Origin: Arachidicoccus sp. BS20
GTDB lineage: Bacteria; Bacteroidota; Bacteroidia; Chitinophagales; Chitinophagaceae
DNA: 64,000 nucleotides
Assembly: GCF_001659705.1 (NCBI RefSeq)
Contig: NZ_CP015971.1
Coordinates: 806,001-870,000 of the forward strand
Direction: 5' to 3'
Shown here: in pieces, positions 27,128 through 51,519 of the stretch
Position numbering within the stretch: the first letter of the stretch is position 1
Layout of the letters: each line of letters begins with the position of its first letter
Position numbers and translations under genes: made by a program
Notes under the pieces: generated by a model
Seen by the model: only the letters and a program-made list of their open reading frames with translations
The model's database searches: none
Told to the model about the DNA's origin: nothing

Positions 27128-27157
27128 TAATACAGCTATAAGACTAATAATTAGTTG

Positions 27158-27532
27158 TGGAGCTGGCGAGAGTCGAACTCGCGTCCAAACATCGTTGCCA
27201 TAAGCTTTCTACATGCTTAGTTTATTATTATTTGTCGGCGAAAGACAGGAAATAAACCAACCAATCTTTCACTTAGCTGAATAAATCTTTTGCAACCGGC
27301 ACAGCCTGAGGTTGCAGCAATCTGCATTTTGATTTGAGTCGGCGGCGGAGCTTGGCAGCAGACCAACCTGCTCAACGCGGCCCGAACGGATGTCTAATTA
27401 ACTAATTAGGCAGCCATAGCAAACTGAGTGTTGCCATTTGAATTTTGAGTATTCAGATTAAAGCGCTAATTACACAACGCGCTGCATGCTTACACTTACC
27501 GCTACTGATGCTGTCAAAACCAATACAGCCCC
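27158..27532 (-). ncRNA. ssrA: transfer-messenger RNA (tmRNA)
   Basis: The RNA rescues stalled ribosomes and tags the incomplete protein for degradation. Its 5' end GGGGCTGTATTGG pairs with the 3' end CAGCTCC, and the T-arm GAGTTCGACTCTCGCC is intact. The tag frame runs from 27435 to 27409 and encodes GNTQFAMAA, followed by TAA at 27408-27406. It has the nine-residue length and initial Gly seen in known Bacteroidota tags. The 3' CCA is not encoded (the genome reads ACAA), so it must be added enzymatically. Length is about 375 bases. Confidence 0.95.
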
Positions 27533-44413: not shown

Positions 44414-46393
44414 TTAAATGTTCCAGTTAATACCAATCTTGAAATTTCTTCCCGGCATGGGATAATAACTTACTATCTGATATTGTTGATTGAATAAATT
44501 ATTCAGTTCCAAAGTCAATTTCCAAGCAGATTTCTTATTAATGAATTTGTATGAAAGCGTTACATCCTGCGCGTTCCATTTGGGCAAAAGCGCATCGGCG
44601 CTATTGTACACTGCATCGTATCTATTGCCCGAAAACAGCGCATTCCATGCAAATGAAAATGCTTTATAATCTGCCGACAAATTGAACGAAGCAAAATGCT
44701 TCGGCGTATAAGGAATCTTGTGTTTATACTCCGGCGATGCCGGGTCATTGTTCAATGATTGTTGTAGCGTATAGTTCGCATCGAAAGAGAAATGCCATTC
44801 TTCAATCGGTTCAAAATTCAACTTTGCCGTTAAATCCAAACCTTTAATAAAAGCCTTGCCTACATTCTGCATACTCCATTGCGAAATGTTTTGACGCGGC
44901 ATGGCAAGTATCATATCGTTGATACGATTATTATATCCATCAGCAATGAATAATATTGATTGTATAAAATTATTAAAGTTTTGTCGCCACGTAATTCCCA
45001 AATTATACTGCTTGGTATATTCCGGTTTCAGATTGGTGTTTCCTACTTGTGTGTAATACAAATCGTTGAAAGTAGGTATTCGGAAAATGTCTTTATAAAA
45101 CGCTCTTAACCTTAATGGAACATTTTTCGATGGCTGATAAATAAATTCTACCGTCGGGCTGAAATGGTGATAATTAGCGGGTTTTGAGCGATGTTCTACT
45201 TTGTTGTTTACTGTTGTACTTAATAAGTTCCCGGCAATTTGCAATTGCTCAAATGAAAATTTTACGTTTACATTATTTAGCAAAGTATATCTCGTAGGTG
45301 TTGCAAAGTCTTGTTGGTTGCTGTGCAAATTATCAATAAAAAAATCGGTTGCATACGCTGCTTTCATAAAAGAAAAAAGTTGAAAAGAGTATGCACCGCT
45401 CACATAAAATTCGCGTTGGTAGAAAATCATTTCCAATCTATGTTGCGCGTTTTGATAAGCCGTGTCCAAGTAATCGGTATAAGTGTAATTATATTTTCCA
45501 TTGAGCAATAATTCGCTTCGCGCTGATAACTTTTTTTTCCAAAAAGCCTGCGCGAAAAAATTATCGTCCCATTGGCGTTGTGTTCCTTGTCCGCTGTATA
45601 AAATAATAGCGCCGGGCAAGCCTCTTTGCGAATGATAATAATACGCATCAACATTCACAATATTGCTGTCATTAATGGCATATTGCAAATTATAAGCTGC
45701 ATGAAAATCGTGAATATCCGCATTTGTTCTTCTGCCCTTTTCCGTAACAGAACCGTTTTTATAAGTGAAGTTATATTCGCCGTTTGCCTTTTCCCACGCG
45801 GCATTCAGCGAACTCGCGAGTTTATTGTTGAACTTGTAATGAATAGTTGCAGCAGGATTGATTAAACCAAAAGAACCCGTGTTTAATGAAGCATTTAGTT
45901 TTATTTTTTCCGAATCATTATATAATGGTTTTATCGTTTTCAATTCCAAAACAGATGCATATGAAAATGCACGTGCAGGTTGCAAAATATTTGTCGGTTG
46001 TGCATTATACAAACTGATTTGTTCAACATTATCCAACGAAATTTTTCCCAAATCAATCTGCCCGTTTTGTGCATCGTTCAGCATAATTCCATCATAGCTC
46101 ACACCTGTGTGATTCGCGCCCAAACTGCGAACAGATATAGTTTTCAGTCCACCGATTCCGCCGTAATCTTTTACCTGAACACCCGAAAAATATTTGACTG
46201 CATCGGCAACAGTTGAACCGTTGATGTTTTGTAAATCATTTTGTTGCAGCGTTTGTACAGGTGTGATTGATTTTGTTGATAGTGGAATTATTTTGCCTTT
46301 TACTTCCACTTCTCTTAAATGATGCGCGGTATCTTCCTGTGCAAAAACGCACGATGAAATCAATAAAAATATAAAAGGTAAAATCTGCCGCAC
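44414..46393 (-). CDS. btuB: TonB-dependent vitamin B12 receptor (BtuB-like), GTG start
   Basis: This 659-residue outer-membrane receptor has a signal peptide ending ISSCVFAQ, then a plug domain with ADAVKYFSGVQVKDYGG and IGGLKTISVRSLG, and a long beta-barrel ending GRNFKIGINWNI. The start must be GTG 46393 or later, because a TAA lies directly upstream at 46399-46397. A cobalamin riboswitch at about 46505-46680 sits in its leader, so it should be repressed when B12 is plentiful. The next gene is a BtuG-like lipoprotein. Confidence 0.85.
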   Translation of the reverse strand: MRQILPFIFLLISSCVFAQEDTAHHLREVEVKGKIIPLSTKSITPVQTLQQNDLQNINGSTVADAVKYFSGVQVKDYGGIGGLKTISVRSLGANHTGVSYDGIMLNDAQNGQIDLGKISLDNVEQISLYNAQPTNILQPARAFSYASVLELKTIKPLYNDSEKIKLNASLNTGSFGLINPAATIHYKFNNKLASSLNAAWEKANGEYNFTYKNGSVTEKGRRTNADIHDFHAAYNLQYAINDSNIVNVDAYYYHSQRGLPGAIILYSGQGTQRQWDDNFFAQAFWKKKLSARSELLLNGKYNYTYTDYLDTAYQNAQHRLEMIFYQREFYVSGAYSFQLFSFMKAAYATDFFIDNLHSNQQDFATPTRYTLLNNVNVKFSFEQLQIAGNLLSTTVNNKVEHRSKPANYHHFSPTVEFIYQPSKNVPLRLRAFYKDIFRIPTFNDLYYTQVGNTNLKPEYTKQYNLGITWRQNFNNFIQSILFIADGYNNRINDMILAMPRQNISQWSMQNVGKAFIKGLDLTAKLNFEPIEEWHFSFDANYTLQQSLNNDPASPEYKHKIPYTPKHFASFNLSADYKAFSFAWNALFSGNRYDAVYNSADALLPKWNAQDVTLSYKFINKKSAWKLTLELNNLFNQQYQIVSYYPMPGRNFKIGINWNI

Positions 46394-46504
46394 GCCTTAT
46401 AAATAGCGGCTTCGAGAAGAAAATAGCAAAGCTGAACAAGACACAGCAAAATAGTTGCACGTCAAAATTCGTTCTTCAACTTTTCGTCCCGAAAGCCAAT
46501 GAAA

Positions 46505-46680
46505 TAATATGTGATAAAGGCAGGTCTTCCGGCTTGAAGCATTGTTGAAACCTTCCCATTTCTTACAACGAAACAGTGGTAATCTTCAACAACTTGTTTT
46601 ATAAAAACTGCTTGTTACGGCTACGGGGATAGCGTTGGAATTTACACCAATCTTCCCTTTTAATTTTGTGTAAACAAAAA
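46505..46680 (-). promoter_or_regulatory. cobalamin riboswitch
   Basis: On the minus strand the leader reads GGGAAGATTGGTG near its 5' end, then TACCACTG, and the conserved B12 box AAGCCGGAAGACCTGCC at 46535-46519. These are the hallmarks of the adenosylcobalamin riboswitch. The element ends about 115 bases before the btuB-like GTG. Boundaries are approximate. Confidence 0.9.
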
Positions 46681-46708
46681 CCTTAATCGAGCGCGAAGAT
46701 AAAAGAAA

Positions 46709-50337: not shown

Positions 50338-50369
50338 TTTGCATTTTAAAATGTACTGCTATATTTTTG
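50338..50369 (+). promoter_or_regulatory. promoter of the asd leader (TTTG-N20-TATTTTTG)
   Basis: TTTG at 50338-50341 and TATTTTTG at 50362-50369 match the Bacteroidota -33 and -7 elements with a 20-base spacer. Transcription should start around 50374, a few bases before the leader-peptide ATG at 50382. Confidence 0.7.
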
Positions 50370-50381
50370 CACTCGTTAAAA

Positions 50382-50438
50382 ATGAGCAACATAAAGAAAC
50401 ATACAAAGAAGATTAAACCATCTCATAAGGAAGGCTGA
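50382..50438 (+). CDS. 18-residue lysine-rich leader peptide, candidate asd attenuator
   Basis: The ORF MSNIKKHTKKIKPSHKEG ends at TGA 50436-50438. It holds six Lys codons (two adjacent pairs), two Ile and one Thr, which are end products or near-products of the aspartate pathway that asd feeds. It begins within about 10 bases of the predicted transcription start and is followed by a stem (50399-50408 with 50440-50449), an antiterminator segment and a terminator, all before asd. It is too short for normal gene prediction, and its function is inferred from the arrangement. Confidence 0.6.
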   Translation: MSNIKKHTKKIKPSHKEG

Positions 50439-50449
50439 ACTTTGTATGT
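50399..50449 (+). promoter_or_regulatory. leader stem of the asd attenuator
   Basis: ACATACAAAG (50399-50408) pairs perfectly over 10 bases with CTTTGTATGT (50440-50449). The left arm lies within the leader-peptide codons, so a stalled ribosome would block the pairing. AGGAAGG at 50428-50434, in the loop, can instead pair with CCTTCCT at 50473-50479 and so compete with the terminator. Confidence 0.55.
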
Positions 50450-50470
50450 GCTTAAAATAAAAATATAAAG

Positions 50471-50499
50471 AACCTTCCTCGAAACGGGAAGGTTTTTTT
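50471..50499 (+). terminator. attenuator terminator upstream of asd
   Basis: AACCTTCC (50471-50478) and GGAAGGTT (50487-50494) form an 8-bp stem followed by seven T. It lies 30 bases before the asd ATG, with no other gene between. Confidence 0.85.
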
Positions 50500-50529
50500 A
50501 TACATTCATTCATCAAAAAAAATATACAA

Positions 50530-51519
50530 ATGAAAGTAGCCGTAGTGGGCGCCACAGGACTTGTAGGAACAAAAATGTTGCAGGTGTTAGCCGAAAGAAA
50601 TTTTCCCGTTACTGAATTATTGCCCGTCGCTTCCGAAAAGAGCGTTGGAAAAGAAGTTGAATTTAAAGGGGAAAAATATAAGGTAATCGGTATGCAGGAA
50701 GCAATTGATGCAAAACCAAACGTGGCGTTATTTTCCGCGGGCGGTACTACTTCACTGGAATGGGCGCCAAAGTTTGCCCAAGCCGGCATTACGGTTATCG
50801 ACAATTCTTCGGCATGGCGAATGGACGCTACTAAAAAATTAGTCGTTCCGGAAATCAATGCCGATGCGCTTACCGCAGAAGATAAAATTATCGCAAATCC
50901 CAACTGTTCTACTATTCAAATGGTAGTTGCTTTAAATCCATTGCACAAAAAATATAAAATCAACCGCATTGTTGTAAGCACCTATCAAAGCGTTACGGGA
51001 ACAGGCAAAAAAGCCGTTGACCAATTGTTCAACGAACGTAAACATATCGACGGAACAATGGCTTACCCCTATCCTATCGACCTGAATGTAATTCCGCAAA
51101 TCGATGTGTTTACCGATAATGGCTACACCAAAGAAGAAATGAAAATGGTAAACGAAACCAAGAAAATTCTGCGGGATGATTCTATTCGCGTAACGGCTAC
51201 AACTGTACGCATTCCGGTAATCGGCGGACACAGCGAGAGCGTGAATGTAGAGTTTGCAAACGACTTTGATTTGGATGAAGTGAAAGATATTTTGTCCAAA
51301 GCCGAAGGTGTGATTGTAGAAGACAACATCAATGAGAATATTTATCCCATGCCGCTTAACGCTCACGAAAAAGACGAAGTTTTTGTAGGAAGATTAAGAA
51401 GAGACGATACACAACCCAATACTTTAAACCTTTGGGTCGTGAGCGACAATCTGCGCAAAGGCGCTGCCACCAACGCCGTGCAGATTGCGGAATATTTGCT
51501 AAAGAAAGGATTGTTATAG
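50530..51519 (+). CDS. asd: aspartate-semialdehyde dehydrogenase
   Basis: This 329-residue NADPH enzyme makes aspartate semialdehyde, the branch point to lysine, diaminopimelate, threonine, methionine and isoleucine. GATGLVG at residues 7-13 binds the cofactor. The catalytic Cys126 lies in NPNCSTIQ and His234 in GGHSESV. It is preceded by a lysine-rich leader peptide and a terminator, so expression is likely attenuated by supply of aspartate-family amino acids. Confidence 0.97.
   Translation: MKVAVVGATGLVGTKMLQVLAERNFPVTELLPVASEKSVGKEVEFKGEKYKVIGMQEAIDAKPNVALFSAGGTTSLEWAPKFAQAGITVIDNSSAWRMDATKKLVVPEINADALTAEDKIIANPNCSTIQMVVALNPLHKKYKINRIVVSTYQSVTGTGKKAVDQLFNERKHIDGTMAYPYPIDLNVIPQIDVFTDNGYTKEEMKMVNETKKILRDDSIRVTATTVRIPVIGGHSESVNVEFANDFDLDEVKDILSKAEGVIVEDNINENIYPMPLNAHEKDEVFVGRLRRDDTQPNTLNLWVVSDNLRKGAATNAVQIAEYLLKKGLL

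Follow-up and report, generated by a model that had tools for sequence, protein, structure and literature searches.

A probable lysine-codon attenuator upstream of asd, conserved in relatives of Arachidicoccus

The DNA immediately upstream of asd in Arachidicoccus sp. BS20 very probably encodes a ribosome-mediated transcription attenuator of the his/trp type, which, judging from its sequence, would sense charged tRNA-Lys and control asd. It lies at positions 50338 to 50529 of the window, the 64,000 nucleotide stretch of DNA that was analysed. Such an attenuator had been proposed in a sequence-only reading of this DNA, and the proposal is supported by a conserved Lys-rich ORF, by covariation of the stems, by leaders before dapA and lysA, and by sibling leaders for other amino acids. 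In Escherichia coli, hisL, trpL, and thrL are ribosome-mediated attenuators. The asd leader shares with these a promoter, a short ORF containing pathway codons, a 1:2 hairpin overlapping the ORF, a 2:3 antiterminator, and a 3:4 terminator. It differs from them in its Lys codons, in its association with asd, dapA, and lysA, in its Bacteroidota-type promoter, and in that the 1:2 stem is interrupted, with the left strand of the antiterminator (strand B) in an apical hairpin. The mechanism is of the known his/trp kind, while the signal, the genes, and the lineage appear to be new.

All of the elements of the sequence-only reading are present in the window in the order given there, based on sequence and folding, and all are on the plus strand. 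TTTG (50338-50341), followed after 20 nucleotides by TATTTTTG (50362-50369), is read from the sequence as a promoter, and we take TTTG-N20-TATTTTTG (50338-50369) to be the Bacteroidota-type consensus. A consensus scan found a promoter-like match at 50338-50365, although the excess is unclear (region total of 13 vs 9.5 ± 3.2 in shuffles); comparable boxes are seen by eye directly 5′ of the leader ATG in relatives. The leader ORF (50382..50438) has its ATG at 50382-50384, codes to 50435, and ends with TGA at 50436-50438. Its 18 codons encode MSNIKKHTKKIKPSHKEG, containing six Lys, two Ile, and one Thr, which bears out the earlier count of nine of 18 residues, and Lys codons 5, 6, 9, 10, and 12 are 5′ of strand B. 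Strand A, the left arm of the first stem (P1), is within the ORF (ACATACAAAG, 50399-50408; sequence, folding, and the partner test described below) and pairs at ten out of ten positions with the right arm, strand A′ (CTTTGTATGT, 50440-50449; sequence and folding), confirming the perfect 10 bp stem that had been described.

Strand B, AGGAAGG (50428-50434), is within the final ORF codons and is able to pair with CCTTCCT (50473-50479). Strand C (50471-50479) is common to the antiterminator, with B, and to the terminator, with strand D; both B and C are supported by folding and the partner test. Strand D and its T-run (50487-50499; sequence, hairpin scan, and folding) are the right arm of the terminator, in which AACCTTCC (50471-50478) pairs with GGAAGGTT (50487-50494) and seven T are found at 50493-50499. 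An intrinsic terminator 5′ of the structural gene is thereby present, as in his/trp-type attenuators. The consensus scan listed this hairpin on the minus strand alone; a separate search for hairpins recovered it on the plus strand. The gene that would be regulated, a 329 aa ORF (50530..51519) with homologues in other genomes, is presumed from its sequence to be asd, encoding aspartate-semialdehyde dehydrogenase. Folding of the 132 nt leader gave z = -4.6, with no equal among 200 shuffles; values were z -2.2 for the leader without its terminator (5/200 shuffles as good), z -3.1 for the antiterminator stretch (1/200), and z -3.6 for the terminator (1/200). The leader stretch is unique in its own genome, the sole match being itself.

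Homologues of asd were found in 56 of 59 relatives, plus 80 named loci, and 110 upstream regions were compared, 30 from the search of relatives and 80 from the named loci. A duplicate of the window (L031) was removed before counting, no two of the 110 regions are identical over the last 200 nt, and two truncated regions with 84 nt (L067) and 46 nt (L073) of upstream sequence were kept and scored as not found. The leader ORF, with a core of KHTKxxKK, and the terminator are present in 50 of the 110 regions (48 identified by script and two by hand) and absent from 60. This design is conserved and does not arise by chance. The presence of the terminator in all 50 is by construction of the selection script, which required CC[TC]TC or CCCC, and leaders with another C strand could escape it; a motif-free hairpin scan found a terminator at five leaderless loci, and in no case was it of the CCTTCC kind.

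Based on the titles of the records, the carriers include Limnovirga, Sediminibacterium roseum, Filimonas, Flavihumibacter, Niastella, Parafilimonas, Niabella, and one MAG titled Chitinophaga pinensis, the others being MAGs titled Chitinophagaceae, Chitinophagales, Sphingobacteriales, Sphingobacteriia, or Bacteroidetes. The selection script found no leader in loci titled Mucilaginibacter, Pedobacter, Sphingobacterium, Dyadobacter, Spirosoma, Hymenobacter, Pontibacter, Algoriphagus, or Fulvivirga; the same was true of Chitinophaga sp. CF118, one Sediminibacterium MAG, and a number of other Chitinophaga-titled MAGs. The 50 leaders were used to build a covariance model (R1), which due to gaps is mostly sequence and terminator. 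At E 0.01 it matched 207 of 294 genomes in the family of the window, identified through the named relatives as Chitinophagaceae; this is an upper bound for the asd or dapA leader, since weak matches such as the his leader are included. Thirty of the family matches were given loci, 28 before asd and two before dapA, with at least eight in genomes that were the source of the model. For two of the loci (L140 and L141), the peptide extracted is not that of the leader, owing to mis-anchoring or to an overlapping frame. Among the R1 matches listed for 119 genomes of the order, all of those above 60 bits are in the window's family, and the best outside it is weak, at 44 bits. Sixteen loci outside the family and a weak second match within it (L223) were read and by eye looked like plain terminators, with the exception of L230, before lysA, the one leader among these 17 weak loci.

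The pattern of substitutions within the 50 leaders is that of a coding sequence. As the sequence-only reading had proposed to check, the ORF is not only conserved in relatives (the 50 of 110 loci) but also Lys-rich: at four columns of the codon alignment, Lys is present in 44, 45, 44, and 34 of the leaders (167 out of 200), encoded by AAA 100 times and by AAG 67 times, with Asn codons just twice. The Thr and Arg columns likewise vary at the third base, and the peptide tail 3′ of the Lys block varies freely. A short ORF under coding constraint is therefore found between promoter and gene, as in the his/trp type, and the codon pattern suggests that it is translated.

Coding constraint would equally be conserved in a gene for a small functional basic peptide, and the leader has the promoter and terminator that such a gene would own, with asd being expressed independently. 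This explanation is highly improbable, because the end of the T-run is separated from asd by 30 nt, with no promoter-like site between them in the consensus scan, the peptide ranges from 12 to 29 residues across the 50 leaders, the stop codon is 5′ of strand B in 13 of them, and the leader accompanies both asd and dapA. In addition, strand B covaries with strand C, for which a simple terminator has no need.

This covariation was assessed by a partner test, in which pairing in silico was calculated for the left strand of each leader both against the partner from the same leader and against those from all others, using windows fixed without reference to pairing (n=50 leaders, 5000 permutations). 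For A:A′, own partners gave a mean of -13.23 kcal/mol vs -10.22 kcal/mol for swapped partners (z -9.2), and for B:C the means were -14.89 vs -13.12 kcal/mol (z -7.1); in neither case were any of the 5000 permutations as good. When the set was thinned to 28 sequences, 0/5000 and 1/5000 permutations, respectively, were as good, and six control pairings with neighbouring DNA in the 50 leaders gave z values of -1.5 to 0.2. In an earlier B:C test, 35 of 50 leaders had an own pairing better than the row mean, but the position of B had been chosen as the best match to the C of the same leader, a procedure biased towards own partners; the repeat with fixed windows upheld the result, the thinned set giving one permutation as good where it had previously given none.

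Individual leaders show the strands altered in concert. In L021 the three strands read GGAAAGG, CCTTTCC, and GGAAAGG, in L025 GGAGAAG is found alongside CTTCTCC, and in L016 an Arg to Cys change in the ORF (CGC to TGC) is matched in A′; in L045, strand B follows the change in C incompletely. Covariation of the stems, which had been put forward as a check, is thus supported for both A:A′ and B:C. Two further features of his/trp-type attenuators are represented by these results, a 1:2 hairpin that overlaps the ORF and sequesters B (A:A′) and a mutually exclusive antiterminator with covariation and a null control (B:C).

RNAalifold, run on the gapped alignment, returned seven terminator pairs only and did not recover P1, due to the gaps, and the case for P1 therefore rests on the per-sequence tests. 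A scan of column pairs was discarded as uninformative, since A-rich and T-rich columns pair everywhere. When the leaders were folded without the terminator, most of them showed B, on inspection by eye, in an apical hairpin enclosed by P1; its pairing probability was 0.39-0.89, the partner not being upstream in L012. According to this folding, the 1:2 structure amounts to a single long hairpin with interruptions, the inner hairpin around B being weak in the window's own copy. The earlier statement that AGGAAGG can pair with the terminator's left arm stands, with the qualification that the segment is not simply free, being, by eye, in the apical hairpin in most relatives.

The codons of the pathway product are placed where they could control the switch, again as in the his/trp type: across the 50 leaders, Lys accounts for 176 of 400 codons located 12-35 nt before B, vs 52 of 530 elsewhere. 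In a simple footprint model, which assumed that the ribosome protects 11 nt past the A-site codon, this is the region in which a stalled ribosome would free B. Nascent B:C is predicted to form in 50 of 50 leaders when the A-site codon is at a distance of 15-39 nt from B on its 5′ side; the number falls to 44 at 12 nt and one at 6 nt, and no leader forms it at 0 nt or beyond. In the finished transcript, C:D is modelled as stronger on average than B:C at every ribosome position (mean P(C:D) of 0.66-0.96), and timing would therefore have to decide in favour of the antiterminator. With no ribosome, the modelled nascent RNA favours B:C (mean 0.68, 35 of 50 leaders), and shut-off without translation is therefore not cleanly predicted.

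In the proposed mechanism, RNA polymerase would initiate just 5′ of the leader ORF, with a ribosome trailing. When lysine is ample, the ribosome would reach the stop codon and mask B, and A′ as well; with B masked, C would pair with D and transcription would terminate 5′ of asd. When charged Lys-tRNA is scarce, the ribosome would stall within KK..KK and would mask A and the strand opposite B. Strand B would then be free to capture C on its emergence, the terminator would form too late, and asd would be transcribed.

The same design is present before dapA in 14 of the 46 dapA genes examined in a search of 49 genomes (for example, MQLIKKHTKQVKKHSMYGEG), a proportion that is not a frequency, as the genomes were partly chosen for having two model matches, and from which the best matches of three genomes (G005, G165, and G288) are left out. 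The 14 leaders come from five genera (g3, g107, g29, g24, and g58), and no leader was found at the other 32 genes. Re-anchoring by tblastn allowed 42 dapA genes to be assessed and flagged 14; among these L187 is apparently spurious, whereas L174 was missed by the Lys filter. The partner test for P1 is weaker in the dapA leaders, 26 of 5000 permutations being as good.

Lys-rich leaders that differ in sequence from the asd leader were found before two of 45 lysA genes (MIYKHKSSKRFLPKW in G356 and MNLLKHKNAKKRLTFSGR in G397), in two families of the order (f14 and f3), the other 43 having none. With their terminators, they are approximately 234 nt (L240) and 135 nt (L259) upstream of the lysA match; re-anchoring by tblastn assessed 42 lysA genes and flagged three, one of which (L247) looks spurious. 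No such leader precedes the dapA and lysA genes of the window's own genome. The names hisG, ilvD, thrA, dapA, lysA, and asd are presumptive, having been assigned from the sequences, with asd, dapA, and lysA also matched across genomes by search. These three genes serve lysine and its precursor DAP.

Other leaders of this kind are present in the window's genome. A His-rich leader (MILNVHTHHHHFLSKG), with a nested hairpin and terminator, precedes a hisG-like gene (L143, G000:C1:1147139-1147257, minus strand), an Ile/Val-rich leader frame (MRIMSIRVKNIIRIITVIIVVVVIIPSAQGSGFVL) with a terminator precedes an ilvD-like gene (L146, G000:C1:1044776-1044856, plus strand), and a Thr/Ile-rich leader (MNNRSINIISTSSVVLRGTIATIIITTL) precedes a thrA-like fused kinase, an open frame of 816 aa (L286, upstream of the gene whose match ends at G000:C1:1174771, minus strand). 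The leader residue thus follows the pathway of the gene, asd having the Lys leader. No Rfam matches were found for five loci with his, ilv, dapA, and lysA leaders.

Lys, Ile, and Thr were treated together as signals in the sequence-only reading. The evidence points to Lys as probably the main signal rather than Thr or Ile. The same attenuator could respond mainly to threonine, or to threonine and lysine jointly, since asd feeds both branches; the E. coli thrL leader uses Thr plus Ile. Thr is present in 41 of the 50 leaders at one column of the codon alignment and Thr or Ile in 35 at another (22 Thr and 13 Ile). This possibility is unlikely when the dapA and lysA leaders are considered: Lys is kept in 14 of 14 dapA leaders, the second Thr is replaced by Val or Ser in 12 of these, two (L192 and L193) are without any Thr, and the two lysA leaders have none and one. 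Likewise, the window's genome carries a separate Thr/Ile leader for thrA, and the His-Thr codons of the asd leader double as the A arm of P1. Lys is thus favoured as the main signal, if not necessarily the sole one given the conserved Thr.

No Rfam family reaches its gathering score at the window leader. The top-scoring weak match is Bacteroid-trp (RF01692), at 27.4 bits against a gathering score of 49 (E 0.32), with other families having a lower E, including Phe_leader (24.9 bits, E 0.033). Bacteroid-trp is, by its Rfam description, likewise a leader-peptide RNA of Bacteroidota, but is tryptophan by name and concerns another gene. The lysine riboswitch, or L-box (RF00168), causes premature termination at lysine-pathway genes, as is proposed here, but binds lysine directly and needs no ORF. 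A metabolite- or protein-binding leader such as this, containing the ORF by chance, would also be structured and have a terminator. It is a very improbable explanation here, in that no family reached its gathering score, the L-box is absent from the Rfam matches at the leader, and conservation tracks the codons, with synonymous third bases at the Lys and Thr columns.

We know of no leader peptide in the asd RNA motif (RF01732), which is also absent from the Rfam matches at the window leader. That motif is linked to asd by name but is assigned to another lineage, the Lactobacillales (PMC2864571). Within the same phylum as the window, leader-peptide attenuation has been proposed before amino-acid operons of Flavobacterium psychrophilum, with no lysine leader named in the available part of that report (PMC9723704), and leader-like sORFs are mentioned for Bacteroides, lysine not being named in the available text (PMC7366714). 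By title or abstract, the open-licence literature contained no lysine leader-peptide attenuator. Two other RNAs were identified in the window, a Cobalamin riboswitch (46502-46700, minus strand, 94.7 bits) upstream of a TonB-receptor-like ORF (44414-46393), and a tmRNA gene (27155-27532, minus strand, 131.8 bits).

To our knowledge, the control of lysine and DAP synthesis in Bacteroidota is poorly described, and DAP is part of the cell wall in many bacteria. It is rather probable that the Chitinophagales have a lysine regulon controlled through leader-peptide attenuation, comprising asd, dapA, and lysA, in which the Shine-Dalgarno-like AGGAAGG serves as the antiterminator. Bacteroidota ribosomes largely ignore Shine-Dalgarno-like sequences, and a strong one would therefore be usable in this role. 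The asd leader would be widespread in the window's family, with copies before dapA in five genera and counterparts before lysA in other families, and would make a new entry among RNA families. One genome would have a set of leader-peptide attenuators, for Lys, His, Ile/Val, and Thr/Ile. The switch appears to have been kept through much of a family, and its clear predictions, which concern the Lys codons, the stems, and strand B, are open to testing in soil bacteria that can be cultured. The L-box handles lysine genes in Firmicutes and gammaproteobacteria; if this reading is true, lysine leaders do the same in the Chitinophagales.
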